Positions 2,620 to 16,118 of a stretch of 20,908 nt of DNA are shown here, one piece after another. The notes beneath the pieces are model-generated. The model had not been told where the DNA came from and ran no database searches. It saw only the letters and a list, made by a program, of their open reading frames with translations. The stretch comes from a virus. The position numbers were made by a program, and so were the translations under genes. The DNA is taken from positions 1-20,908 of IMG/VR virus record IMGVR_UViG_3300035201_000388; one strand, written 5' to 3'. Numbering within the stretch: position 1 is the stretch's first letter; every line of letters starts with the position of its first letter.

Positions 2620-3240
2620 ATGGCATATCAGAGTATATGGTATTTTACGGACCTTCCCGATAAGATTATAGATACGATTGAGGAGGATCTTACAGAAACT
2701 TTTGATCCACAGATGGCAGACTCCAAGTTACATGGAGATGCACTGAATAAGGATAAGAGAAATTCGCAGAATGCTTGGATACCTACTACTCATTGGGTAG
2801 GTGGGTTTTTATGGCATTATATTCAGAGAGCAAATCGTGAGAATTTTATGTATGATTTGCGCTGTATAGATGGTGAGAGTATGCAATATACTCGGTATCA
2901 AGAAGGTCAGTTCTATGGATGGCACAATGATGCTGGATTGGCAACACAATATAAACCAGTATCTGTAGGTAATCGCCAAGATGGATTAGCACAGGATTTT
3001 GTAAATGAAAATATTGAACTGGTAAGGAAATTATCTTTTGCTATGCAATTGTCTGACCCTGATGATTATGAAGGTGGTAATGTTCAACTCCTTGATGAAG
3101 CAGGTAATAGTTATATCGTTCCGCGTAAGAAAGGATGTATAGTATTATTTGACTCTCGTACACAACATAGAGTTCTTAAGGTAACTAAAGGAACACGTAA
3201 GTCTATCGTTGGATGGACTGTCGGACCTCGTTGGAAATAG
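2620..3240 (+). CDS. Prolyl-4-hydroxylase-like 2OG-Fe(II) oxygenase
   Basis: This 206-residue protein has the full 2-oxoglutarate/Fe(II) dioxygenase signature. The iron ligands are H102-x-D104 (in GWHNDAG) and H183 (in TQHRV). R193 in GTRKSIVGW is placed to bind the 2-oxoglutarate carboxylate. The EGGNVQLLD segment at 151-159 is typical of the P4Hc-type double-stranded beta-helix core. Family members hydroxylate Pro or other side chains using O2 and 2-oxoglutarate and give off succinate and CO2. It is first of three oxygenase-like genes and lies directly behind the perfect sigma70 promoter; the ribosome site is weak (TAGG). The substrate is not visible. A Pro- and Gly-rich adhesin just upstream is a plausible target, by inference. 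Confidence 0.85.
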   Translation: MAYQSIWYFTDLPDKIIDTIEEDLTETFDPQMADSKLHGDALNKDKRNSQNAWIPTTHWVGGFLWHYIQRANRENFMYDLRCIDGESMQYTRYQEGQFYGWHNDAGLATQYKPVSVGNRQDGLAQDFVNENIELVRKLSFAMQLSDPDDYEGGNVQLLDEAGNSYIVPRKKGCIVLFDSRTQHRVLKVTKGTRKSIVGWTVGPRWK

Positions 3241-3249
3241 GAGGTTATT

Positions 3250-3987
3250 ATGGCAGAAGGAATGACTGAAGCGCAGTTGATGTTTCAAGAGAAACAGAAC
3301 ACTGGAACTGCATGGACAAAAAATGAGAAGTTTGAGAAGGATGGGTATCTTGTTATAAAAGACCTATGGGATCCTGAAGAACTTTATCATCCTGTTCCTG
3401 ATATGAAGGGACAGTTGAATTATTGGGATAGGAACCCAGACCATTTTAATCATACAGAAGTTGAGATGCAAGTAGAAGGTTCACTTGCACGTTATTGGCA
3501 TCCACAATATAGAACGATTCATAGTGGTGTGCGTAAAAAGTTGGAGGAAGTAATTGGTAGGAAGTTATATAATACCTATTATTATGATAGATATTATTTT
3601 CCTGGACAAGCATTAACTAAACATGCCGATAGAGATGCATGTGAAATCTCTGTTAGTATTCATATTAGTACTAATCTTCCAGAAGGTGAAAGGGATTGGC
3701 CCTTTAAGATTAAGACTCCTGATACTTATACAGATAAAAAGAAAACTGCTGTATTAGTACCTGGTGAAGAACGTTCTGCTGTTCTTAATCCTGGTGATGG
3801 ATTATTGTATAAAGGATGTGAGAGACCACATTGGAGGGATCCCATGCCTGGTACTCCTATAGGTAAGAAGAGTAAAAAACTATTTGGTAAGAAGCAACAA
3901 CAGGAACAGTATTATCATCAAATATTTTTCCATTATGTTCTACAAGATGGTCAACGTGCTCACTGTGCATGGGATAGGTCACGATGA
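3250..3987 (+). CDS. 2OG-Fe(II) oxygenase-like protein
   Basis: This 245-residue protein starts at an ATG four bases after AGGAGGT. H125-x-D127 (in LTKHADRDACEISVSIHIS) and H194 (in CERPHWRD) fit the 2-His-1-carboxylate iron triad, and PGDGLLYKGCERPHW at 181-195 is the typical strand leading to the distal His. A Lys-rich insert (KKSKKLFGKK, residues 206-215) follows the distal His. The Arg or Lys that would bind 2-oxoglutarate is not obvious, so co-substrate use is less certain than for the upstream gene. The C-terminus (QYYHQIFFHYVLQDG) looks like the final core strand. The gene is 9 bases after the P4H-like gene and overlaps the next start by ATGA, so the three are one operon. Confidence 0.75.
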   Translation: MAEGMTEAQLMFQEKQNTGTAWTKNEKFEKDGYLVIKDLWDPEELYHPVPDMKGQLNYWDRNPDHFNHTEVEMQVEGSLARYWHPQYRTIHSGVRKKLEEVIGRKLYNTYYYDRYYFPGQALTKHADRDACEISVSIHISTNLPEGERDWPFKIKTPDTYTDKKKTAVLVPGEERSAVLNPGDGLLYKGCERPHWRDPMPGTPIGKKSKKLFGKKQQQEQYYHQIFFHYVLQDGQRAHCAWDRSR

Positions 3988-4541
3988 AGGCACCACTTTT
4001 TGAATTTCCTTCTTATCAGTATGAAGTAGATGATTGGGACTTTAAAAAGAAAGGATTACTTAGTCGTATCAATAAGGGTAACTTTATAAGAACTGAACTA
4101 CAGACCTTTGAGACTGATAGGCAGACTGCTGGTAAGTCTTATGTGCATTATTTGCAAGATTTTTTAAAAGATATTCTTTGGGAATTTTGTCAAGAAGCAC
4201 AGGTTACTTGTGGTATGACTGATGCATGGTGCGTTAGATACCAGAAAGGAGATCAACAGACTATTCATAATCATAGAGGATGGGGATTTTCTGGAATTTT
4301 ATATGTAGAGTTTGATCCAAAGGTCCATACTCCTACTTGTTTTATGGCACCTTGGCAAGATCCAAGAACTGATACCACATCTCTTGCATTTCCACAAAAT
4401 GTAAAGGAGGGAACTGTAATTATTGCTCCTTCATTTACACACCATTTTGTTCATCCAAATAAAGCACGAAAGCAAAGAACTGTTATATCATTTGATTTAT
4501 TACCAAAACTTCCTGATCATCAGTCTATAAATACAGAATGA
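3984..4541 (+). CDS. Putative 2OG-Fe(II) oxygenase, HxH type
   Basis: This 185-residue protein resembles the putative 2OG-Fe(II) oxygenase family often listed as 2OG-FeII_Oxy_5 (PF13759). It has H95-x-H97 followed by SGILYVEF, then IIAPSFTHHFVHPN with H154 as the likely distal ligand, then R165 before TVISFDLL. The position that is Asp or Glu in most 2OG enzymes is His here. The start codon overlaps the stop of the preceding gene (ATGA), which indicates translational coupling. The stop at 4539-4541 runs straight into the late promoter of cassette 2. The substrate is unknown; modification of fibre or adhesin residues is inferred from position alone. Confidence 0.75.
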   Translation: MKAPLFEFPSYQYEVDDWDFKKKGLLSRINKGNFIRTELQTFETDRQTAGKSYVHYLQDFLKDILWEFCQEAQVTCGMTDAWCVRYQKGDQQTIHNHRGWGFSGILYVEFDPKVHTPTCFMAPWQDPRTDTTSLAFPQNVKEGTVIIAPSFTHHFVHPNKARKQRTVISFDLLPKLPDHQSINTE

Positions 4542-4568: not shown

Positions 4569-5465
4569 ATGTCAAGAGTTCGCGCAGACAAACTTGTTGA
4601 TAGGAATGCCACGGGTGCTCCGCAATTTACTTATGGTGTTGAAGTTCCGGTAGGATATGGAATAACAGGTGCGGGTGGAATTAATGTTTCCGGGATGGTT
4701 ACTGCCACGGCAGGTTTTGATGGTGATGCAACTGGATTAACGGGTTCTCCTGATATTACAATAACTAATTTAACTGGTGTTGCTGCTACCTTTACGGGAG
4801 CAGTGAGTTATGAAGATGTAACTAATGTAGATTCAACTGGTATTGTTACTGCACGAGGAGGATTTAAGGCAGGATCTCCGACAGGTGTTGGTGCAACGAT
4901 TGGTGTTGATAATGCAGGAGACGCAATATTCTCTGGTATTGTAACTGCTGGTACTTGCTTTAAAGCAGGATCAGTTTCTGGTGGCGCATTTGGTGCTGGT
5001 GTAGGTGTAACGATTACTGGTGATGGTAACGCAGTATTTTCTGGAATTACAACGGTAACTAATTTTGATGCTAAAGGAACTCTTGTAGAAGCATTTAGTT
5101 CAACAACCACTGCATGGAGTAGTGCGGCGGATCTTAATATAACTAACGGCAATGTTCAATTCTCCTCGGCGAACTTGGGAGGAACTAATAATACCCTTAA
5201 CATTTATTCTACAACTGGTATTAATACAGATTTAGCAATTAACCAGACTCTGACGGTTACTGGAATAACTGCTGTTAATGCTACGACGGCATATGTTAAT
5301 AAGGTTACCGTCGATGGTGTAGCAACTGGTATTACGACTCATTGGATAGGAGGAAGTGTTCCGAGTGATGGTGGAGGATCAGGAGTTGACCTTTATACCT
5401 TTAACTTATTAAAAACAGGTGATGCCACATACATTATTGTTGCTAATCAAAGTAAGACTTCTTAA
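4569..5465 (+). CDS. Fibre-like virion structural protein, cassette 2
   Basis: This 298-residue protein is a paralogue of the cassette 1 fibre protein. Residues 15-41 hold the TGAP...VPVGYGITGAGGINV module, 80-95 the YEDVTNVDSTGIVTA repeat, and 168-298 the shared C-terminal domain ending in IANQSKTS. The middle differs, with two FKAGS...G repeats (about 99-160) replacing the cassette 1 sequence. The shared C-terminal parts agree closely in protein but differ at most synonymous sites, so the duplication is old. The gene is preceded by a late promoter without a ribosome site and followed 14 bases later by the Gly-rich partner gene. Residue composition fits a beta-structured fibre; virion location is inferred. 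Confidence 0.8.
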   Translation: MSRVRADKLVDRNATGAPQFTYGVEVPVGYGITGAGGINVSGMVTATAGFDGDATGLTGSPDITITNLTGVAATFTGAVSYEDVTNVDSTGIVTARGGFKAGSPTGVGATIGVDNAGDAIFSGIVTAGTCFKAGSVSGGAFGAGVGVTITGDGNAVFSGITTVTNFDAKGTLVEAFSSTTTAWSSAADLNITNGNVQFSSANLGGTNNTLNIYSTTGINTDLAINQTLTVTGITAVNATTAYVNKVTVDGVATGITTHWIGGSVPSDGGGSGVDLYTFNLLKTGDATYIIVANQSKTS

Positions 5466-5479
5466 GGGAGGATTAGTTG

Positions 5480-6568
5480 ATGTTTAGTAATTTCTGGCAT
5501 AAAAAAGAAAAACCTTTAATGGGTCTAACCGGTCTGGGTGGCGGTGCCGCTGGATATGGTCGTGTGGGAGCTGGTGACACTTTCTATGCCACTGGTGGTA
5601 CTAAAACATATGAACCAGGACCTAATGGACCCACTCATTATACGATCCATACCTTCCAAAATCCTGCTAGTCCTGAACCTTATAGTGCAGATTATTCTAC
5701 CAGTTTTGTAGTTGAAACTACTTCTAAAGATGTTACTGACTTTGAATATCTTGTAGTTGGTGGTGGCGGAGGAGGAGGAAGGGGATTTAACTCCTTTGCC
5801 CTAGGTGGTGGCGGAGGTGCGGGAGGTTATCGCGCAGGAACTCTTTCTTATCCTACAGGATTAGGAGCTGATACTTATCCAGTTCAAGTAGGTGCTGGTG
5901 GAATTAATGGTAATTCTACTGATAATGGGGATCCTGGATCACAACCTAGTTTCGGTGGTAAAGGTGGTGACTCTAAGCTTATGTTCCCAACTCCCGTAGT
6001 TGGTAGCGGTGGTGGAGGAGGAGGAGCCCATCATGGAGTCAATGCTATTCAAAATGGTGCTAGTGGAGGTGGTGGAGGTAACCCAGGACCATATGCATCC
6101 CCAACTCAACCGAATAAGGGTACAGACGTAGTTTCTCCTGATGGAATAAGTCCTACCATTCAAGGTTATAATGGTGCGGATGGTGGTATTTATCACAATG
6201 GGGGTAGTAATGTTGGTGGTGGCGGCGGTGGATCGAGTCAAGCTGGTGCTAGAGGAACTCCTACAAACAATTGGCCCGATGAGGCAAGTACTGGTGGAAA
6301 CGGTGGTGATGGAACAACAAATACTATAAGTGGTGCATCTGTAACCTATGGTGGTGGAGGTGGTGGAGGTTGCGCTGGATCTGGCGTTCAAGGTGGTGAG
6401 GGTGGATCTGGCGGTGGTGGTGATGGTGGAAAAGATAGTGTAGGTGGATCTTCTGCAACTGACCACCTTGGTGGTGGAGGTGGCGGTGGAGGTGCCTCCA
6501 GCAGTGATACTCCAGGTGGTAAGGGTGGTACAGGAGTTGTTATTGTTAAATATGTTGGTAGTCAGTAA
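5480..6568 (+). CDS. Glycine-rich adhesin-like protein, cassette 2
   Basis: This 362-residue protein starts at the ATG at 5480, seven bases after AAGGGAGGA; an in-frame TTG at 5477 is less well spaced. The head (MFSNFWHKKEKPL then GLGGG) matches the 912-2564 product. Residues about 38-82 form a short non-Gly domain (YTIHTFQNP..SFVVETTSKDVTDFEYLVVGGGG). Residues 88-350 are GGGGG-rich with scattered PG motifs, and the end GGTGVVIVKYVGSQ is the standard closing strand of phage glycine-rich tail domains. It lacks the extra C-terminal domain of the cassette 1 protein. The GGT/GGA/GGC codon runs make the DNA highly repetitive. A receptor-binding role is inferred from composition and its place after a fibre gene. 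Confidence 0.75.
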   Translation: MFSNFWHKKEKPLMGLTGLGGGAAGYGRVGAGDTFYATGGTKTYEPGPNGPTHYTIHTFQNPASPEPYSADYSTSFVVETTSKDVTDFEYLVVGGGGGGGRGFNSFALGGGGGAGGYRAGTLSYPTGLGADTYPVQVGAGGINGNSTDNGDPGSQPSFGGKGGDSKLMFPTPVVGSGGGGGGAHHGVNAIQNGASGGGGGNPGPYASPTQPNKGTDVVSPDGISPTIQGYNGADGGIYHNGGSNVGGGGGGSSQAGARGTPTNNWPDEASTGGNGGDGTTNTISGASVTYGGGGGGGCAGSGVQGGEGGSGGGGDGGKDSVGGSSATDHLGGGGGGGGASSSDTPGGKGGTGVVIVKYVGSQ

Positions 6569-6607: not shown

Positions 6608-8062
6608 TTGAAAATTTGTATTGTTGGAGGTGGGTCCGCTGGATGGATGAGTGCGACTACTTTGGTACGTCTTTTAGATGCTGATGTCACCTTAATTGAA
6701 TCCCCGGATGTTAAAATAATTGGAGTAGGTGAGAGTACTTTATTTCAAATACAGTCTTGGATAGATTTGGTTGGGATTCGTGCTGATGAGGTAGATTTTA
6801 TTAGAAAAACGGGTGCTACTTTAAAGCATAGTATAAAGTTTACTAATTTTTTAACTAAGGACTCAGGAAGTTTTCATTATCCTTTTGGAGATGAACCTTT
6901 GATTAACCCTGTTGAATGGTGGAAAGCCATGAATGGTGGAAATCAGGACGTTTCATTTAATTCTTATGCAGAAGATATAAATCCTCTTGCATTATGTGCA
7001 GAAAGAGGTAAGTTTGATAGTACAGCATCTTATTCATATCATTTTGATGCTGTAAAATTTGGAGAATATTTAAAGAAAAAGTATTGTAAAGAGGTTGATC
7101 ATATTAGTGCTAATGTAGTTGATAGTAATATAAATGAGGATGGGATAGAATCTCTTAAGTTGGATAATGGAAAGAATATAGAAGCAGATTTGTTTATAGA
7201 TTGTACAGGATTTAAGAGTTTATTACTTGGGGAATTTTTAAAGGAACCTTTTATTCCTTATGACCATGTGATTCCTAATGATAGTGCATGGGCAACTCAT
7301 ATTGCTTATACTGATAAAGAATCACAAATGGTTGCTTACACAGAATGTACGGCCATTGATAATGGATGGGTATGGAATATTCCTTTATGGGATAATATAG
7401 GGACGGGGTATGTTTATTCTTCTAAACATATTAGTAGGGATGATGCTAAGAAAGAGTTTATTGATCACTTAGGTACGAGTGATTGTGAATTTAGACATAT
7501 TCCAATGAAAGTTGGAAGATATAAGAGAACTTGGGTTAAGAATGTTGTTGCTATTGGATTAGCTGGTGGTTTTATTGAACCATTAGAATCTAATGGTCTT
7601 CTTACTGTCCATGAGAATTTAATTGCCCTTTATAAGGTATTGAGAAGGGGTAAAGCATCTCATATATTGAAGGAAATGTATAATTTTGGAACTAATAGAA
7701 AATTTGATGAATTTGTAGATTTTATTGCGATACATTATGCCTTCACTCAAAGAAGAGATACTAAGTATTGGGAAGATATTTTTAATAAAGATTATAATAT
7801 AGAATCGAGTGATCAACTTACTAGATTTGGATTAATGTCGTTTGGAAATAGTCTTTTTGTGGAAAATAATTTTATTAATTTGGGTGCAGGATTTCATTAT
7901 ATTGCGTCGGGGATGGGAGTTTCTCCTTACTCTGCAGAAGGAGAGATAACTAATATTGATAAGACAAAAAAAGACTGGGAAAAAGTTATTCAACAAAAAC
8001 CTTTTTTATATCAATATCTGAGTGATGTTGTTTATAAGACATATCCTATAGTTTATAAATAA
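6608..8062 (+). CDS. Flavin-dependent tryptophan halogenase-like protein
   Basis: This 484-residue flavoprotein resembles PrnA/RebH-type tryptophan halogenases. The FAD site GGGSAGW is at residues 7-13. VGEST at 40-44 and ATLKHSIKF at 70-78 place the catalytic Lys at K73. The halogenase signature WVWNIP is at 254-259, and GLAGGFIEPLESNGL at 317-331 carries the Glu-Ser pair expected near the substrate and chloride site. Such enzymes use FADH2, O2 and halide to chlorinate or brominate indole rings through HOX and a lysine chloramine. It is slightly shorter than typical members (about 510-540). TTG is chosen as the start because the next ATG would remove the FAD motif. No flavin reductase is seen nearby. 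Substrate could be free Trp, another indole, or Trp in a virion protein; the latter is inference from context. Confidence 0.88.
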   Translation: MKICIVGGGSAGWMSATTLVRLLDADVTLIESPDVKIIGVGESTLFQIQSWIDLVGIRADEVDFIRKTGATLKHSIKFTNFLTKDSGSFHYPFGDEPLINPVEWWKAMNGGNQDVSFNSYAEDINPLALCAERGKFDSTASYSYHFDAVKFGEYLKKKYCKEVDHISANVVDSNINEDGIESLKLDNGKNIEADLFIDCTGFKSLLLGEFLKEPFIPYDHVIPNDSAWATHIAYTDKESQMVAYTECTAIDNGWVWNIPLWDNIGTGYVYSSKHISRDDAKKEFIDHLGTSDCEFRHIPMKVGRYKRTWVKNVVAIGLAGGFIEPLESNGLLTVHENLIALYKVLRRGKASHILKEMYNFGTNRKFDEFVDFIAIHYAFTQRRDTKYWEDIFNKDYNIESSDQLTRFGLMSFGNSLFVENNFINLGAGFHYIASGMGVSPYSAEGEITNIDKTKKDWEKVIQQKPFLYQYLSDVVYKTYPIVYK

Positions 8063-8081: not shown

Positions 8082-8948
8082 ATGTCTGCTGCAAGAGACT
8101 TAGCAAAATTAGGTAATACCAATACCTTAAAAGTAGATACTATTAGGAGCAAGGTTGGAATTAATTCCACTGTTCCTACCGGTGATTTGCAAGTTGGTGC
8201 TGCAATTACAGTAGGTAGTGCAAGTGGTATTATTAGTGCTACTGCTTTTTATGGTGATGGTTCCAATCTTGATGGTGTATCTAGTGCAGGTTTAGGAACA
8301 GCATTAAGTGAAACTGATGGAGATCCTGCAAAGTTAATTTATTATACTAATAATACTTTAGGTATTGGTTCAACAGTTCATATTAAAGTTCCTACTGGTT
8401 CTGATGTTGCTTATACCCAGTATGCTGATATTGATGTAGCAGAGAATTGTGATTTTATTGTTGATGCTGGTGATGATTTTATTCCTGATGTTTTAGGATT
8501 ATCCACTGCTGGTGTTGATGTTATATCAGGAGCTGGTGGAAGAATCAGAGCAGGATATTTCACTAATAAAGCAGGCACAGGTGCTCCACAATTAACATTC
8601 GGTGCAGAAGTTCCTGTAGGGTATGGAATTACTGGTGCTGGTGGTATTAATGTAGGAGGTGCCGCTACTGTTTTAAGTTTGAATGCTACTGGTAATATAA
8701 CTGCAGTAGATGCTACTTTCAGTGGAACTCTTACTTATGAAGATGTAACTAATGTAGATGCCACTGGGATTATAACTGCAAAGTCTGGAATTGAGTTTGG
8801 TACGGCTGGGGTTGGTGGTACTATTACTGGTGCAGGTCAAGCAGAATTTGTGGGTGTTGTAACTGCTAGTGATTTTGTAGGTGGAGGATCTCAACTTACA
8901 GGACTACCTGCTGGGTTTACTGAACTGGATGCAGCTTTATTTAACTAA
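8082..8948 (+). CDS. Chimeric fibre-like structural protein, cassette 3
   Basis: This 288-residue protein combines two units that are separate genes in cassette 4. Residues 1-143 resemble the 11629-12090 product: a TAFYGDGSNLDGV repeat, then TNNTLGIGSTVHIKV and YADIDV...FIVDAGDDFIPDVLGL. Residues 150-191 match the start of the cassette 1 and 2 fibre proteins (GGRIRAGYFTNKAGTGAPQL, then VPVGYGITGAGGIN). The YEDVTNVDATGIITA repeat at 219-233 and VTASDFVGGGSQLTGL at 260-275 follow. It lacks the 131-residue C-terminal domain of the other two. The late promoter overlaps the preceding stop codon. A virion fibre or appendage role is inferred from the repeats. Confidence 0.78.
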   Translation: MSAARDLAKLGNTNTLKVDTIRSKVGINSTVPTGDLQVGAAITVGSASGIISATAFYGDGSNLDGVSSAGLGTALSETDGDPAKLIYYTNNTLGIGSTVHIKVPTGSDVAYTQYADIDVAENCDFIVDAGDDFIPDVLGLSTAGVDVISGAGGRIRAGYFTNKAGTGAPQLTFGAEVPVGYGITGAGGINVGGAATVLSLNATGNITAVDATFSGTLTYEDVTNVDATGIITAKSGIEFGTAGVGGTITGAGQAEFVGVVTASDFVGGGSQLTGLPAGFTELDAALFN

Positions 8949-9386: not shown

Positions 9387-10472
9387 ATGGGAGCACGGTC
9401 CGATAATACTAATAGAAAAGGTAGTCGTTCTCAAAGTCAAAATAGACTTTTAAATGGACATGCAACAACTTTTTTTAATAGTAGATTAGATGCAGGTAAC
9501 ATAGGTCCTAATAATAAAGTTGTTGTTCAAGCATCAGGTGGTAATGTAGAATTTACAGCGGGTGGTTATAAGTATCATTTGTTTAGAGGTCCTGGTACTT
9601 TCACTGTTACTGTTGGTGGAGAAGCACAAGTTGTTGCTTTTGGTGGAGGAGGTTCTGCTGGATTCTTCTATGGTGATGGTGGAGGTGCTGGTGGACTTTT
9701 ACTGGCACCTGCTTATCCTTTAGATGCGGGATCTTATACAGTAGCTGTTGGTGAAGGAGGTGCTGCACCAGGAGCCTCTCCTAGTGGAGAAGTAGGTGCT
9801 GTAGGAACAGCTTCAGAATTTTATCCTACGCCTGCGGGGCCGGGAGAAGGTGCAAGTAATATGTATGCAAGAGGTGGTGGCGGTGGTGGACATAAGCAAG
9901 CAGAACCTCATCCTGCTCCTACTAGTGGATTTCCTTGGAACCCTGTTAGTGGCACAGGATCCGGGGGTGGACAGCATAATGGATCAACACCTGAAATAGC
10001 TCCTAATTTTACTAGTAGTACTCAACACCCGGCTGTAACCGTTAAGGCTGCAGGACAGGGTGGAGATATGCCTTACTATGAGAATGGTGGTAGTGGTGGA
10101 TCTGGAGCTGGTGGAGGGGGTGAAACTCCTGGATCATTTAATGCAGCATATGGTGGAGCTGGATATGGTGTGCCTGGATTCCCTGGACCAGTTCTGTATG
10201 ATGGGATGCCTGCTCCTGAACAATCTTCGTGGGGTGGAACTACATGGCGGGATACTCTAGGTCCGAGTGGTTATGTTTGTGGTGGAGGTGGTGGATGGAG
10301 ACCTCTTCCTGCCACACCGAGGTCTAATGGTGGTGGAGGTGTAGGTGGTAGTGGTGCACCTACGTCGGATGTACAAGCTATTAATTATACTGGATCTGCT
10401 GGAGGTGCCTATGCTCCTCCGGGATCAGGAGCTGGTGCGGATGGAGGAGTGTGGATTAAGTATGAGGCTTAG
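9387..10472 (+). CDS. Glycine-rich adhesin-like protein, cassette 3
   Basis: This 361-residue protein follows a TGAGGGA ribosome site. The first 30 residues are basic and polar (MGARSDNTNRKGSRSQSQNR) and differ from the heads of the cassette 1 and 2 proteins. Residues about 52-90 (FTAGGYKYHLFRGPGTFTV, then AQVVAFGGGG) open a phage glycine-rich domain. The Gly- and Pro-rich core runs to about 350 and closes with GGVWIKYEA. Proline is common in GPG, PGF and APT contexts, and Trp appears at several exposed-looking Gly-flanked sites. It is the last gene of the cassette, with an extended -10 promoter for oxygenase-like genes just after it. An adhesin role is inferred. Confidence 0.75.
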   Translation: MGARSDNTNRKGSRSQSQNRLLNGHATTFFNSRLDAGNIGPNNKVVVQASGGNVEFTAGGYKYHLFRGPGTFTVTVGGEAQVVAFGGGGSAGFFYGDGGGAGGLLLAPAYPLDAGSYTVAVGEGGAAPGASPSGEVGAVGTASEFYPTPAGPGEGASNMYARGGGGGGHKQAEPHPAPTSGFPWNPVSGTGSGGGQHNGSTPEIAPNFTSSTQHPAVTVKAAGQGGDMPYYENGGSGGSGAGGGGETPGSFNAAYGGAGYGVPGFPGPVLYDGMPAPEQSSWGGTTWRDTLGPSGYVCGGGGGWRPLPATPRSNGGGGVGGSGAPTSDVQAINYTGSAGGAYAPPGSGAGADGGVWIKYEA

Positions 10473-10513: not shown

Positions 10514-11113
10514 ATGTTTAGAACTGAAAAAAAGAATAAAGCGATTCTTAATCGCGTAAATCAATTAAAGAGATCAAGGTCTTCCTCACCAGAGTATGAA
10601 GATTTTGATCTCTTTGAAATGCCATCTTTTATTTTTAGGAAGAAATTTCCCAATCATAATGAAATAAAGGATAAAATTTTAGAGGCACTGAAGGTTACTC
10701 CCACTTCTCCATCCCAATTTCATAATCTAAAGAAGCACGATTGGGATATACCTCATGAGGTTCCTCGATCTTATACTAATTATTTTCTTCCCAATCTTAC
10801 AAAGGTTGCTCAACCTTTTATAACCAACTATACTCTTAATGCATATAGGTTTTGGTTTAATCAGTATGAAATTGGTGAGAGTGAATGTTTCATTCATATT
10901 CATCAAGGTGCCACTATTTCTGGTGCTTATTTTGTAGAGTTAGAAAAGAATAAAGATTCTACTATATTTGTAAATCCTTCTGCTACTGTGGGATATCAAG
11001 TTCCGGTTAAAGAGGGTGATATATTATTTTGGGATCCTATGCTTCCTCATGCAGCCCCTGTTACAAGAGGATTAAAAACTATTATTTCCTTTAATCTTAA
11101 TTATGAAAAGTGA
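10514..11113 (+). CDS. Putative 2OG-Fe(II) oxygenase, HxH type
   Basis: This 199-residue protein belongs to the same HxH-type family as the 3984-4541 product. H128-x-H130 lies in CFIHIHQGATISGAYFVEL. The distal H179 is in LFWDPMLPHAAPV, and K188 precedes TIISFNLNYEK. The first 30 residues are basic and Ser-rich, with no counterpart in the shorter family members here. The stop overlaps the GTG start of the next gene (GTGA), so the two are coupled. No strong Shine-Dalgarno sequence is present. Iron use is inferred from the family; the substrate is unknown. Confidence 0.72.
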   Translation: MFRTEKKNKAILNRVNQLKRSRSSSPEYEDFDLFEMPSFIFRKKFPNHNEIKDKILEALKVTPTSPSQFHNLKKHDWDIPHEVPRSYTNYFLPNLTKVAQPFITNYTLNAYRFWFNQYEIGESECFIHIHQGATISGAYFVELEKNKDSTIFVNPSATVGYQVPVKEGDILFWDPMLPHAAPVTRGLKTIISFNLNYEK

Positions 11114-11589
11114 AATTACTTATTAAAGACGTTCTTACTCAAAAAGAAAGAGAAAAATTAATAATCGATTGTAAACCTTTTTTGTATGATAAAGGACTTA
11201 CTAATCCGGGACTTCAGTCAGATTTTGTACAAAAGTATGGGAGTGGGTATCCGCAATTTAAAAATGTTCATAATAAATTTTTAGACATTGCTCAAAAAGG
11301 ACTTAATATTAGATTGAAGTGGGATGTATCATGGTTTTTTTCTAGTAAAGGTAAAATAAAAAATAATTGTTTCCATACTCATCCTGTGGATTATACAGGG
11401 GTTTATTATATGCAAACTTTTCCTTTTTTAATTAATGGAACTGTATTTGAAGATGGATTTTTTAAAGCCCCTCAAAATAGTTTATTAATATTTCCAGGAT
11501 CTTTATCTCATATGGCCCCTTCATCTCCATTTCCATTGGAAAGATATACGATGTCATTAAACTGGAATAAATATCAGGCGATATATTAA
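11110..11589 (+). CDS. Putative 2OG-Fe(II) oxygenase, HxH type (short)
   Basis: This 159-residue protein starts at a GTG that overlaps the preceding stop; the next in-frame ATG would cut off the N-terminal KLLIKDVLTQKEREKL segment. It carries H89-x-H91 in FHTHPVDYTGVYYMQ, H134 in IFPGSLSHMAPSS, and R145 in LERYTMSLNWN. These are the conserved points of the HxH-type oxygenase family. It is the shortest member here, with a reduced N-terminal helical part. The operon ends here, and the late promoter of cassette 4 begins 13 bases later. Confidence 0.72.
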   Translation: MKLLIKDVLTQKEREKLIIDCKPFLYDKGLTNPGLQSDFVQKYGSGYPQFKNVHNKFLDIAQKGLNIRLKWDVSWFFSSKGKIKNNCFHTHPVDYTGVYYMQTFPFLINGTVFEDGFFKAPQNSLLIFPGSLSHMAPSSPFPLERYTMSLNWNKYQAIY

Positions 11590-12119: not shown

Positions 12120-13034
12120 ATGTCTCAAATTAGAGTTGATGATATTGTAGGTGAAAATGGTACGAGTGCCGTTGAATTTACAAAGGGTGTTAATGCTACT
12201 GGGGTGATAACTGCTGCTAGTTTCACTGGAACAGCATCATCTGCTACTAATGCTACTCAAGCATATGGGTTAACTGGTACTCCTACAATCGCCGTTAATG
12301 ATATAACAGTTGCGGGTGATTCAACAATTACTGGTAATTTAACGGTTAATGGTTCTCAGACCATTATTTCAACAGAAACATTAGAGGTTGGTGATAAAAC
12401 AATTGGTATTGGATCTACTACTACTGCATCAAACGTAACTGCTGATGATGCAGGTATTGTTGTATATGGATCAGTTGATGGATCAAATGACAAAACAATG
12501 CTTTGGAATAAGGATTCCACTTGTTTTGAATATAATGTTCCTCTTAAACCTAAAGGGGTAATTGAAACGGTTGCTGCTGCTAGTACCCATGAAAGTGGGG
12601 TAGCGGGACGATCAGTTATAGAATTAGATGTACAAGCATCGAATGTTTATAGGTATGCTGTACCGGCAACAGGTAATATTGGTATTGTTTCCTTTAAGAA
12701 TATGCCTGCCAATGCCGAGTGTAGTGCTACCGTAACAGTTATCTTTACTCAAAACTCATCAACTCCTACTAGTGGAGTTGGTAATACCGTAGATACAAGT
12801 GGTATTGGTACTTACTGTAATGTAACTGGTATTTCTAGTGATACTGTTGCTGGTATTTCTACTAGAGGGGATGTTGGTTCTGCAAGTACAGTTACTCTCT
12901 CTGCTACCGCAAGTGATGAGGACTTTGTTTCCTTCTTTGTTCATTATAACGGTGGTACTAATACGGATGCATCTAGTTACAAAGTATATGTAACTAAGAA
13001 AGGCGGATTCCGTCCTGGTTTAATTGGCGTTTAA
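12120..13034 (+). CDS. Fibre-like structural protein, cassette 4
   Basis: This 304-residue protein starts MSQIRVDDIVGENGTSAVEF, clearly related to the start of the 21-899 product. It then has the TGVITAASFTG repeat. Residues about 73-125 contain the block GNLTVNGSQTIISTETLEV, then DKTIGIGSTTTAS and GIVVYGSVDGSNDKTMLWN. That block is widespread in cyanophage virion proteins. Residues about 150-304 form a beta-rich C-terminal domain ending in YKVYVTKKGGFRPGLIGV. Its late promoter core lies at 12086. It is followed by a 53-residue gene and a Gly-rich gene, repeating the fibre-then-adhesin order. Confidence 0.8.
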   Translation: MSQIRVDDIVGENGTSAVEFTKGVNATGVITAASFTGTASSATNATQAYGLTGTPTIAVNDITVAGDSTITGNLTVNGSQTIISTETLEVGDKTIGIGSTTTASNVTADDAGIVVYGSVDGSNDKTMLWNKDSTCFEYNVPLKPKGVIETVAAASTHESGVAGRSVIELDVQASNVYRYAVPATGNIGIVSFKNMPANAECSATVTVIFTQNSSTPTSGVGNTVDTSGIGTYCNVTGISSDTVAGISTRGDVGSASTVTLSATASDEDFVSFFVHYNGGTNTDASSYKVYVTKKGGFRPGLIGV

Positions 13035-13255: not shown

Positions 13256-14344
13256 ATGGCAAATATTAACTTTACAACCACAGCTGGTGGAGATGCTATT
13301 GTAAAACAGTATACCTCCATGAATATTAAGGCTGGAGACACTGTATCTGTTAGTAATACTAATAAGGGATTAATAATATATTGTACTGGTGACTGTACTA
13401 TTGACGGTCATCTCACGATGAGTGGGAAAGCGGGTACTGCCAATAATAGTCCGGTTCCAGCTAATGGACTTAGATGGACTTTTTATGATCCAACTCAGAG
13501 TAATGGTCCTCTTACTTATCCTCAAGTTCCTGTTTCTTCTTTAGGAACAGCAGCGGATACTGTCGCACAAAAAATGACCGCATTGCCTGGTCCTTCAGGA
13601 CGGGTAATTGCGGTAGCAAAGACTGGAGCAGGTGGGGGAAATAATGTTAATGGTGGGGAACCTGGATGGGCCCCACAGGTAGACCAATCTGTAAGTGGAG
13701 TATCTGGAGCTCCCAATAATCAAACCGGCGGTGGTGGTGGAGGACGTGGATATAATGGTGGTGGAAACGGTGGTACTGGAATATGTTGGGGTGGCGGCGG
13801 TGGTGCTGGCGGCGGTGGTGCTGGCGGATCGGGTGGTGAAGGTAATGATGGCGGTATAGCGCCAGGTCCAACAGGACCACAAGTTGAAGGTGGTAATGGT
13901 GGTAATGCACCTGAAACTGGTAGAGTAGGTGGTGGCGGTGGTGCTGGTAATCCTGCGGGTAATGGTGGATCTGGACCTTCTGGTGCTGGTACAGCTGGTG
14001 GTGTGGGTGGTGGTGGTCTTTTAGCCCTCTTTGTAGGAGGTGACCTCACTATTGGTCCTACAGGTGGAATATTCTCTGATGGTGGTTCTGGCGGTAATGC
14101 TGGTGCACCTGGTGGTGGTAGTAATGGTGGAGGTGGCGGTGCTGCTGGCGGTGGCGCTATCTTCGTAGTATATGGGGGTAGTTTTACGAATAACGGATCT
14201 ATTACAGCTAATGGTGGTACAGGTGGGGGATGTGGTCCTTCACCAGGACCTCCTAGTGGTGGAACTGGTGGACCGGCTCCTTCTACTAATTCTTCTGGAG
14301 ATGGTGGTGCTGGATATGTTCTTACTGCACCAGTTCCGTTCTAA
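13256..14344 (+). CDS. Glycine-rich structural protein, cassette 4
   Basis: This 362-residue protein follows a TAGGAGT ribosome site. The N-terminal part (about 1-60: INFTTTAGGDAIVKQYTSMNIKAGD, then IDGHLTMSGKAG) and the internal GDLTIGPTGGIFSDGGSGG and GSFTNNGSITANGG segments have the rhythm of a beta-helix whose turns are filled with Gly. This differs from the other three Gly-rich proteins, since no VVGGGG opener or VVIVKY closer is present; it ends GAGYVLTAPVPF. The Gly core is at about 150-340. The stop overlaps the convergent minus-strand gene by 4 bases. An adhesin role is inferred from composition and gene order. Confidence 0.7.
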   Translation: MANINFTTTAGGDAIVKQYTSMNIKAGDTVSVSNTNKGLIIYCTGDCTIDGHLTMSGKAGTANNSPVPANGLRWTFYDPTQSNGPLTYPQVPVSSLGTAADTVAQKMTALPGPSGRVIAVAKTGAGGGNNVNGGEPGWAPQVDQSVSGVSGAPNNQTGGGGGGRGYNGGGNGGTGICWGGGGGAGGGGAGGSGGEGNDGGIAPGPTGPQVEGGNGGNAPETGRVGGGGGAGNPAGNGGSGPSGAGTAGGVGGGGLLALFVGGDLTIGPTGGIFSDGGSGGNAGAPGGGSNGGGGGAAGGGAIFVVYGGSFTNNGSITANGGTGGGCGPSPGPPSGGTGGPAPSTNSSGDGGAGYVLTAPVPF

Positions 14345-14940
14345 CCTATTATTTTAATATTGAAGGAAGACTTTGTTTCTATTGAAAGACTTCCTTCAAC
14401 AAAGAAATTAAAAGAGATGGAGTGCTTTGTAGAAGTGCTCGGAAGAGTATAGTGTCTTAGGTAGGAAGGGAAAAATATTATAGTTTCTTTTTTACATGAA
14501 ACTTTGAATGTGTGATATGTAAAATTATTCTGTTCATCATATTCTGGGCATATTATCATCGATTGTTCTATAGGATTTTCAAATACTATAGGGGAATCTT
14601 CGTTTCCATAGGGATAATATACTCCTGACCAATAAGAATTTTTATGTGAATGGGTGGGTATATCCCCTCCTGCGTCATATTGATTATACCAACTTGTAAT
14701 TAAGATAGGGGTAGAGTTTCTAGAATTTTGGAGGGAACCGTAAAAAATATTATTATATTTCTCTGTGATGGTTGAAATAAAATTGGTGCTGAATTTATAC
14801 CGTTGAATGTTATTTACTTGTTTAAGTTTATTTTTGTCATTTCTTACTAAATATGATAAACTCTTTATAAGACTATCTTTGGATGGAATATTGCATTCTT
14901 CGTAGAATATGGGAACTGTAAAAGGAGTAAAATAATCCAT
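14341..14940 (-). CDS. Putative 2OG-Fe(II) oxygenase, HxH type, minus strand
   Basis: This 199-residue protein is the only minus-strand gene supported in the window. It has H97-x-H99 in IPTHSHKNSYWSGVYYP, H163 in IIFFPSYLRHYTLP, and K172 where Arg is more usual before HSISFNFF. A longer segment (about 113-150) separates the two halves than in its relatives. The last 20 residues (LSIETKSSFNIKIIG) extend beyond the core and contain the hairpin. Its start codon shares CATG with the start of the divergent 14939 gene, and its promoter appears to lie inside that gene. The reversed orientation suggests inversion or separate insertion. Confidence 0.75.
   Translation of the reverse strand: MDYFTPFTVPIFYEECNIPSKDSLIKSLSYLVRNDKNKLKQVNNIQRYKFSTNFISTITEKYNNIFYGSLQNSRNSTPILITSWYNQYDAGGDIPTHSHKNSYWSGVYYPYGNEDSPIVFENPIEQSMIICPEYDEQNNFTYHTFKVSCKKETIIFFPSYLRHYTLPSTSTKHSISFNFFVEGSLSIETKSSFNIKIIG
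14360..14399. terminator. Strong hairpin at convergent gene ends
   Basis: TTGAAGGAAG (14360-14369) and CTTCCTTCAA (14390-14399) are perfect inverted repeats. After one A-A mismatch the stem continues with CTTT/AAAG, leaving a 10-base loop. It lies 16 bases after the plus-strand stop and inside the 3' coding part of the minus-strand gene. There is no good T-run on either side, so it may be a bidirectional terminator or an RNA-stabilising or processing hairpin. Confidence 0.5.
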
Positions 14941-15466
14941 GACTTTTGATATTAAAGTTCCGGTATTCCAGAAACAAATTATAGATCATCAGAAGTATAA
15001 AAGTCAAATATTAGATTTGATTCGGTTATATTCTTTGGGTGAAATTAAGAAAGGTTCTTTAGATCTGATCTCTGATTATGAATTACCGAGAGATCATCCT
15101 CGACCTTATTTGGATTTGGTGAGAGAGAGGGTGATGAATTGTTTGCTCGATTTTAAGGATATCTCTGATCATTATGAGAAGATAGAGGTTAGATGTTTTT
15201 TCTATCAACAATATACCAAAGAACAATACCATGGATGGCATGTTCATGATTGTCATTATAGTGGAGTATATTATTTAGATTTACCGGAAGGATCTCCCAA
15301 GACAGAGTATATTGATCCTTTTACTAATGATGTATGTGAATTGGATATAAAGGAAGGAGATGTGGTTGCATTTCCTAGTTTTTTGGTTCATAGAGCACCA
15401 CCTAACCCCATAAGTACTCCCAAAACTATTATTTCTTTTAACTTTAATTTTTGGAACAATGACTAA
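14939..15466 (+). CDS. Putative 2OG-Fe(II) oxygenase, HxH type
   Basis: This 175-residue protein has H101-x-H103 in GWHVHDCHYSGVYYLDL, H151 in AFPSFLVHRAPPNP, and K162 before TIISFNFNF, the complete HxH-type signature. The GWH context also recalls the P4H-like genes. AAAGGAG at 14921-14926 is a ribosome site with a rather long spacer. Its start overlaps the divergent minus-strand start by two bases, and its end overlaps the next gene by 8 bases. A weak promoter (TTGGAT, 18 bases, TAGAAT at 14903) lies within the minus-strand gene. The substrate is unknown. Confidence 0.75.
   Translation: MTFDIKVPVFQKQIIDHQKYKSQILDLIRLYSLGEIKKGSLDLISDYELPRDHPRPYLDLVRERVMNCLLDFKDISDHYEKIEVRCFFYQQYTKEQYHGWHVHDCHYSGVYYLDLPEGSPKTEYIDPFTNDVCELDIKEGDVVAFPSFLVHRAPPNPISTPKTIISFNFNFWNND
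14978..15007 (-). promoter_or_regulatory. Minus-strand sigma70-like promoter
   Basis: Read on the minus strand, TTGACT (15007-15002) and TATAAT (14983-14978) are separated by 18 bases. They point at the start of the minus-strand oxygenase-like gene at 14940. The promoter is embedded in the first codons of the plus-strand gene 14939-15466. No Shine-Dalgarno sequence is visible before the minus-strand ATG. Confidence 0.55.
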
Positions 15467-16118
15467 AGATTTTATTGAATTATATGATAATGCTCTTACT
15501 TCTTCCGAGTGTAAAGAGATAATAGATATGATGAATAATGAAGATCTAACACCAGGGAAGTGTGGGAGTGGTGAGGATAATAAGCCCCACGTCCGTAAAG
15601 AGGTGAAAGATAGTCATGATATAGGTGGAAGTTTTTCAGAGCATACTACTCATCCTATTACCATTAATTTAGTGAGGGTTCTTGAGAAAGGTGTAAATTT
15701 ATATGTGAAGAAGCATCCTCAAATGAACTTAATTTCTCTCTGGGATGCAGTTGATTATTATAATTTTCAGAAATATGATCCTGGACAAGGATATTTTGGT
15801 AATCATTGTGAAAATATGGCTCCTGCTCATATGGCAAGAGTTGGGGTATGGATGATTTATTTAAATACAGTGACTGAAGGAGGAGGGACGAGGTTTGATA
15901 ATTATGATAGAGTAGTAGATGCGGTGGAAGGAAGATTAGTTATATGGCCCGCATATTGGACGCATTTTCATCATGGGATAGTGAGTAAGACACAGACTAA
16001 GTATATTGTTACAGGATGGTTTGCTTATAATACTGAAGATTATACAAAATACCAAGAGAAAGAAATAGTAGAAAAGAGTATGAAAGATGCTATTTCTACT
16101 TTGTTTAGTGGATTATAG
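15459..16118 (+). CDS. P4H-like 2OG-Fe(II) oxygenase with HxE motif
   Basis: This 219-residue protein reads as a prolyl-4-hydroxylase-type core. YDPGQGYFGNHCEN places H116-x-E118 as the first iron ligands; Glu replaces the commoner Asp. MIYLNTVTEGGGTRFDNYD (132-150), RLVIWPAYWTHFHHG (159-173, H169 the likely distal ligand) and K181 in KYIVTGWFAY complete the pattern. HxE is tolerated in some 2OG enzymes. It is translationally coupled to the upstream oxygenase-like gene by an 8-base overlap. About 35 residues after the core are charged and probably helical. Protein hydroxylation is plausible from the family, but the target is unknown. Confidence 0.82.
   Translation: MTKDFIELYDNALTSSECKEIIDMMNNEDLTPGKCGSGEDNKPHVRKEVKDSHDIGGSFSEHTTHPITINLVRVLEKGVNLYVKKHPQMNLISLWDAVDYYNFQKYDPGQGYFGNHCENMAPAHMARVGVWMIYLNTVTEGGGTRFDNYDRVVDAVEGRLVIWPAYWTHFHHGIVSKTQTKYIVTGWFAYNTEDYTKYQEKEIVEKSMKDAISTLFSGL

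Follow-up and report, generated by a model that had tools for sequence, protein, structure and literature searches.

Results

Gene content of the locus

The window, that is, the whole stretch of DNA analysed here, is a virus record of 20,908 bases (IMGVR_UViG_3300035201_000388). It looks like a piece of a T4-like cyanophage, because its predicted ferredoxin shares 78% identity with the one from Synechococcus phage S-BM3 and tail-fibre PHROGs match its fibre genes. A large share of the window consists of fibre-like and Gly-rich genes and of genes for 2OG-Fe(II) oxygenases. Among them, an open reading frame with a TTG start (6608–8062, plus strand) encodes a VirX1-like flavin-dependent halogenase of 484 residues, assigned from PF04820, the solved structure 6QGM, residues K73 and E324, and AlphaFold and Foldseek.

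The gene immediately upstream (5477–6568, plus strand) encodes a Gly-rich protein (31% Gly, with 2 Trp and 15 Tyr) that matches PF21722 (62.9 bits) and phrog_2295 and is a putative fibre adhesin. The immediate downstream neighbour (8082–8948, plus strand) is fibre-like (phrog_28668, phrog_36132), and its product lacks Trp and contains 17% Gly. Further downstream, a second PF21722 member is the next gene for a Gly-rich protein (9387–10472, plus strand; 36.9 bits; 5 Trp, 16 Tyr). The original prediction had placed the halogenase between two Gly-rich genes, which is correct on the upstream side but not for the immediate downstream neighbour. Two further Gly-rich proteins, encoded on the plus strand at 909–2564 (24% Gly) and 13256–14344 (32% Gly), have no family match in Pfam or PHROG. 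Tail-fibre-like proteins matching both phrog_30742 (tail fiber protein) and phrog_36132 are encoded on the same strand at 21–899, 4569–5465 and 12120–13034, the last with 276 bits to phrog_36132.

Six 2OG-Fe(II) oxygenases with Pfam support and two probable ones are encoded in the window. On the plus strand, members of PF13759 lie at 3984–4541 (44.7 bits; phrog_81), 10514–11113 (28 bits; phrog_81) and 14939–15466 (37.7 bits), and members of PF13640 at 2620–3240 and 15459–16118 (36.6 bits for the latter). The sixth (14341–14940; PF13759, 56.7 bits) sits on the minus strand amid plus-strand fibre and 2OG genes. One probable member (11110–11589, plus strand) matches phrog_81 with an E value of 6.8e-7; the other, a 2OG-like enzyme (3250–3987, plus strand), matches phrog_2954 and phrog_3531, but no Pfam family, and carries the PHROG label 'ferrochelatase'. 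This label probably marks a 2OG-type enzyme, because phrog_3531 also matches the neighbouring 2OG gene at 2620–3240.

The product of 2620–3240 is PKHD- or prolyl-hydroxylase-like, with the PKHD-type NCBIfam model PRK05467 matching below its cut-off. In Foldseek, its predicted model best matched the P. putida P4H, an EF-Tu prolyl hydroxylase, followed by PHD2 and, from a Chlorella virus, the collagen prolyl hydroxylase vCPH. The highest-ranking rows belonged to bacterial P4H and to human PHD2, and the model fitted onto the fold of vCPH with a TMq of 0.62, where a TM of about 0.6 signifies a shared fold class only and the library is rich in PHD2. vCPH, cited in the available portion of PMC9301287, provides an earlier case of viral proteins being hydroxylated by an enzyme that the virus encodes. 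Towards the end of the window, 19930–20361 matches PHROG 767, 'cAMP phosphodiesterase' (153 bits).

Sequence and predicted structure of the halogenase

The Trp_halogenase profile PF04820 spans residues 2–433 of the enzyme (356.8 bits; cut-off 21), and PHROG 2928 (tryptophan halogenase) matches with 443 bits. The GxGxxG dinucleotide motif, catalytic Lys, WxWxIP and catalytic Glu of the PF04820 family are all present, as GGGSAGW (residues 7–13), K73, WVWNIP (254–259) and EPLES (324–328), in agreement with the motifs named in the original prediction. The catalytic residues are near-invariant across 77 phage and viral homologues: the K73 column holds Lys in 76 and the E324 column Glu in all 77. 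The W254 and P259 columns are invariant.

A structure prediction had been proposed as a check, and the resulting AlphaFold model (pLDDT 89.5) matches VirX1 of cyanophage Syn10 (PDB 6QGM). Foldseek placed 6qgm first (TMq 0.91, 2.6 Å, about 36% identity), and VIA-align superposed VirX1 with a Z score of 46.7 at 1.7 Å over 471 residues; several Trp halogenases reached Z scores of up to 48.1 at 2.0 Å and, because these values are on a par, fold alone does not separate VirX1 from the Trp halogenases. Among solved structures, VirX1 is also the nearest by sequence (E = 4.1e-91) and precedes every tryptophan halogenase. Residues from about 396 to 425, the region that bears on the question of a helical lid (described in PMC7948982), whose absence would give the open active site of a VirX1-type enzyme, were modelled with low confidence. 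The intact motifs and the match of the predicted structure to VirX1 suggest that the enzyme is likely active, as had been proposed.

The Trp4 motif, in its group A or group B pattern, was found in none of the 77 phage and viral homologues, the window enzyme included. The available portions of a survey that defines motif groups A, B and C tie Trp4 to activity on free Trp and place both VirX1 and MibH in group C, without Trp4 (PMC8269204). Because Trp4 is absent and VirX1 shares group C with the peptide-acting MibH, we read 'tryptophan halogenase' as a family name rather than as a substrate, and the strict sense in which the original prediction had used it is not supported. Free tryptophan is an unlikely substrate, given that none of the 77 homologues has the motif.

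Relationship to VirX1 and other halogenases

VirX1 is the product of Syn10 CPUG_00131, as identified by a 1271-bit match to 6qgm, and its gene has Gly-rich fibre genes on one side and a 2OG array on the other. The window enzyme shares the STLxxx and YPFG motifs and the type of locus with VirX1, but it is 36.7% identical (tblastn) and 46 residues shorter. In a tree of 77 rows, the two fall into a common clade of 60 rows (support 94/94, below the starred level) but into different subclades. The window enzyme belongs to a subclade of 36 rows (99/99), together with the upstream member of each tandem pair in Syn10, P-TIM40 and S-RIM44; in Syn10 this member is CPUG_00132, the halogenase just upstream of VirX1. 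VirX1 itself sits in another subclade, as do the downstream copies found in P-TIM40 and S-RIM44. Judged by its sequence, the window halogenase is a relative of VirX1 and not new in kind. At three loci (L047:10473–13578, L051:12001–15097 and L055:8500–11611), the tandem halogenases come from two different old subclades, a pairing that suggests two targets or positions.

VirX1 is described as a trimer with the preference I > Br > Cl and is known for small-molecule substrates (PMC8407142, available portion); the accessible parts of the open-licence literature found do not name the natural substrate of this characterised enzyme. PrnA, RebH and PyrH have the PF04820 fold, GxGxxG, the catalytic Lys and Glu and WxWxIP in common with the window enzyme, which differs in lacking the Trp4 of group A or B. 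The phmmer alignment with PrnA stops at residue 389 of 484. MibH (5uao) adopts the same fold (Z 39.0) at 25% identity. According to the available portion of PMC12615548, MibH and SrpI halogenate ribosomal peptides, and peptide Trp halogenation by MibH depends on prior Pro hydroxylation. These two enzymes work in peptide natural-product clusters, whereas the neighbours of the window halogenase are phage fibre genes.

Supply of reduced flavin

The original prediction had remarked on the lack of a flavin reductase as a puzzle. A profile search with PF01613 (Flavin_Reduct) confirmed that there is none in the window. The same profile had no match in any of 20 halogenase-bearing phage records but matched 13 of the 14 cellular genomes used as controls, including Synechococcus elongatus, so that its absence is normal for halogenase phages and no puzzle. 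According to the accessible part of a review, one reductase can stand in for another as partner, and PrnA was functional in Streptomyces although its own reductase was missing (PMC8407142). Supply of FADH2 by the host is the ordinary case for phage halogenases.

Genomic neighbourhoods of phage halogenases

Neighbourhoods were read in 23 halogenase-bearing phage records (one without annotation), and 20 records were used in genome-wide tests. Fibre or Gly-rich genes are followed by the halogenase (often two) and then by 2OG enzymes in 10 of 11 genomes with a VirX1-like halogenase; in the variant order of Sf-CH11, 2OG genes flank both sides. Counted over genomes that are related and a cassette that moves as a block, and therefore not independent, a PF21722 gene lay within 4 kb of the VirX1-like halogenase in 10/11 genomes (0.69 expected) and of the PrnA-like halogenase in 0/11 (0.33 expected). 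Within 6 kb of 15 VirX1-like copies we found 43 2OG domains against 11.3 expected, a number that none of 4000 random placements reached. The 11 PrnA-like copies had 13 against 7.2 expected (P 0.07). Within 3 kb, the excess was 16 against 5.7 for VirX1-like and 10 against 3.6 for PrnA-like copies.

Three genomes carry both kinds of halogenase, and there the PrnA-like copy, whose label agrees with its 55–92% identity to the Syn1 or S-PM2 copies and 27–30% to the window enzyme, is 9–69 kb away from any PF21722 gene. S-SSM7 was labelled PrnA-like, on a long branch whose placement in the 77-row tree is unsure; S-MbCM6, which has neither the PF21722 nor the 2OG feature and whose halogenase adjoins psbA, was counted separately. 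In the window, a PF21722 Gly-rich gene adjoins the halogenase and multiple 2OG oxygenase genes are close. VirX1-like halogenase, Gly-rich adhesin and 2OG array thus form a recurrent physical link. The connection of the halogenase to Gly-rich virion-type proteins that had been proposed is therefore strengthened by comparative genomics; the kind of enzyme was already known, and this test of its context is the new element.

In a wider set of 60 VirX1-clade copies (loci plus the window), 27 non-duplicate copies with at least 3.5 kb on both sides, including tandem copies and the window, were kept and 33 dropped. A Gly-rich or fibre gene was present within 6 kb of 21 of these 27 and absent in six, and 26 had at least one 2OG gene. 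On the 77-row tree, a 2OG gene lies within five genes of the halogenase in 58 rows and a Gly-rich or fibre gene in 26, and the combined fibre and 2OG context requires at least seven gains or losses. A second niche was apparent in S-B64 and in several contigs (L007:9992–11482 and its neighbours, L021, L044 and L049), where VirX1-clade halogenases lie beside gp46/gp47-type genes with no fibres near; the substrate may differ in this niche.

Among more distant phages, the halogenase of S-SRM01 lies between the tail fibre and the gp37–gp38 adhesin tip complex. In actinophage DSL-LC01 (L070:1079–7621), two PF01391 collagen genes and the gene of a YHYH protein precede a distant halogenase, and a glycosyltransferase with TPR repeats follows it. 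The neighbourhood of the Campylobacter phage CP21 halogenase showed no fibre context. The halogenase neighbours of L067 (MT835646, 'Bacteriophage sp.', human faeces) look bacterial, and this record, although part of the tree, carries no weight here.

Co-occurrence of the Gly-rich adhesin and the halogenase

The Syn10-type Gly-rich protein, annotated as gp38 or tail fiber assembly in syn9, occurs in 19 of the 50,697 phage records, all 19 of which also carry a VirX1-like halogenase; because the genomes are related and represent about eight distinct phages, these are not 19 independent events. For scale, a T4-like neck gene occurs in at least 439 Synechococcus or Cyanophage records. All 19 are among 26 records whose best halogenase match is 35.6–44.6% identical to the window enzyme. 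By tblastn, the remaining seven lack a Syn10-type adhesin: Sf-CH11, Sf-CH1a, Sf-FR1, S-B64 (two records) and S-H35 (two records). A profile search, which covered three of these phages, detected PF21722 genes beside the halogenase in Sf-CH11 and Sf-FR1 and none in S-B64. The window adhesin (5477–6568) had no tblastn match among the phages. In S-CREM1, a Gly-rich adhesin copy at 54494–55291 (L050:9817–10614) is annotated only as a short ORF, and the match is interrupted by stops; it is perhaps a decaying copy.

Records of S-RIM44 differ in the presence of the cassette. Five carry both the adhesin and a VirX1-like halogenase, one of them a RefSeq entry equal in length to another, and four carry neither; KX349292 is the only negative record read in detail. 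Upstream of gp13, KX349291 carries two halogenases and six 2OG-like genes along with three Gly-rich genes and one small gene. KX349292 has a fibre-like and a small gene in the same place, plus a single gene read as 2OG from its sequence, and lacks both Gly-rich adhesin and halogenase. From just upstream of gp13 onwards the two records are 96.6% identical (3,445 aligned columns). In S-RIM44, the modifying enzymes therefore change together with the adhesin, as a block.

Aromatic residues of the Gly-rich proteins and a small partner gene

Gly-flanked Trp residues had been pointed out near 10230–10300 as a hint to the substrate. They do occur (codons at positions 10230 and 10296) but are not enriched: among 42 Gly-rich proteins encoded no more than five genes from a halogenase we counted 52 Gly-flanked Trp against 73.3 expected, and 187 Gly-flanked Tyr against 230.5 expected, and a contrast between near and far Gly-rich proteins is weak, because only five comparison proteins are farther away. 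The Trp content of the adhesins is unremarkable, at 1.26% against a background of 1.57%. Since Gly-flanked Trp is rarer than composition predicts, we rejected it as a substrate signature, and the cue provides no evidence for the substrate. In 24 aligned isolate adhesins, conserved aromatic positions (L047:8305 numbering) are W70 (19/24), W91 (17/24), Y149 (22/24), Y195 (19/24) and H202 (21/24); they are taken from isolate adhesins and do not imply specificity to halogenase-linked proteins. A PDB profile search with the Gly-rich proteins returned only two weak rows, both labelled calcineurin (E 0.004 and 0.008); we took them as composition matches.

In isolates, a small gene of 135–221 aa lies between the Gly-rich adhesin and the halogenase (L047:9962–10456 and eight other phages). 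All nine isolate genes scanned match phrog_1787 (function unknown), with no match in Pfam or the PDB, and phrog_1787 had no match among 20 window proteins scanned. In the cyanophage Pam3, fibre Gly-rich domains recognise the receptor, gp24 having a Gly-rich receptor-binding domain, and the small partner gp25, a two-domain fibre chaperone of 162 aa, assembles the fibre; the accessible part of that report mentions no halogenase (PMC9608196). The small gene of the isolates resembles Pam3 gp25 in place and size, a likeness that does not imply fold kinship.

Discussion

Flavin-dependent halogenases combine FADH2 with O2 to form a flavin hydroperoxide, which converts halide to HOX, and Lys and Glu direct the electrophilic halogenation. 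For the window enzyme, host flavin reductases would provide the FADH2, HOX would form at the flavin and be delivered through K73, and E324 would act as the activating base. By analogy with VirX1, the halide is probably bromide or iodide. Free tryptophan is probably not what the enzyme acts on, and its genomic context suggests a target at the tip of the fibre. The halogenase and the prolyl-hydroxylase-like 2OG oxygenases next to it may constitute a tail-fibre tailoring cassette, which would modify aromatic residues (Trp, Tyr or His) of the adjoining Gly-rich receptor-binding fibre proteins while the fibre is being assembled or earlier, and might affect adsorption. We consider tailoring of the receptor-binding fibre by halogenation and 2OG hydroxylation the likeliest role, at a little below an even chance. 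A more far-reaching form of this proposal, to which we hold tentatively and with more doubt than belief, is that cyanophages add halogen and hydroxyl groups to the receptor-binding tips of their own fibres: the true substrates of the VirX1 clade would be aromatics of Gly-rich adhesins, virions would carry organohalogen (possibly Br or I) chosen with the adhesin type, and the two halogenases of each tandem pair (Syn10, P-TIM40, S-RIM44) would act on different residues. Fibre tailoring draws its support from the family and fold of the enzyme, the placement of VirX1-like halogenases near PF21722 and 2OG genes, their co-occurrence with the Syn10-type adhesin, the block exchange in S-RIM44, the repeated changes of context on the tree, the fibre neighbours in S-SRM01 and DSL-LC01, the prolyl-hydroxylase-like model of 2620–3240 and the precedent of MibH and SrpI. 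It also has evidence against it, in the six of 27 copies without a fibre or Gly-rich gene, the gp46/gp47 and psbA niches, the depletion of Gly-flanked Trp and Tyr, the small-molecule substrates of VirX1, the lack of a tblastn match for the window adhesin and the absence of phrog_1787 from the window.

In the accessible parts of the literature, cyanophage prnA is treated as an auxiliary metabolic gene with an antibiotic or free-Trp role (PMC2984593, PMC9964418), and a phage halogenase is connected with altered host metabolites (PMC10452541). Viral collagen in tail fibres has been suggested to relate to viral prolyl 4-hydroxylase (PMC9301287, available portion). Within the open-licence literature, as far as its text was accessible, we found no proposal of a halogenated virion or of a virion substrate for a phage halogenase.

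That the product is a halogenated small molecule made from a host or phage precursor, be it antibiotic-like, signalling or stress-protective, seems to us unlikely, although it agrees with the in vitro iodination of many small aromatics by VirX1 (PMC8407142), with the assignment of the S-CREM1 copy to free-Trp chlorination and pyrrolnitrin (PMC9964418) and with a jumbo-phage survey that proposes a halogenated amino-acid or sugar metabolite cluster in S-SSM6a (PMC7824862), each as given in the available portions. The S-SSM7 copy, moreover, lies among sugar and carbamoyl enzymes, and the gp46/gp47 and psbA niches are without fibres. Free Trp is, however, an improbable precursor when no homologue has Trp4; the neighbours in 10 of 11 VirX1-like genomes are fibre and 2OG genes, not a biosynthetic pathway, and a small-molecule product leaves unexplained why the Syn10-type adhesin was not found without the halogenase in the phage records searched.

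The tail-fibre regions of T4-like phages are variable. Halogenase and 2OG genes could hence be passengers of a hypervariable insertion hotspot behind the tail-fibre genes, swapped via homologous flanks and not acting on fibres, and the exchange of the S-RIM44 cassette as a block fits this explanation. We regard it as improbable: the insert is biased to 2OG/JmjC-type enzymes and halogenases instead of mixed auxiliary genes, PrnA-like halogenases in the same genomes lie elsewhere, and fibre neighbours recur in the more distant S-SRM01 and DSL-LC01. It is most improbable that the enzyme modifies another macromolecule of the infected cell, such as a host surface glycan or protein or the phage DNA. 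The glycosyltransferase after the DSL-LC01 halogenase and the DNA-metabolism neighbourhood of the gp46/gp47 niche would suit such a target, but in the fibre-linked isolates examined no glycan-synthesis pathway was seen next to the VirX1-like halogenases, and the DNA methylase genes of Syn10 and P-TIM40 are some 9–11 kb away.

If fibre tailoring is true, halogenases and 2OG oxygenase arrays, so-called auxiliary metabolic genes, would belong to host recognition, and the modified fibre would be, to our knowledge, the first halogenated virion protein. The question of the natural substrate of VirX1 becomes directly testable by virion mass spectrometry.
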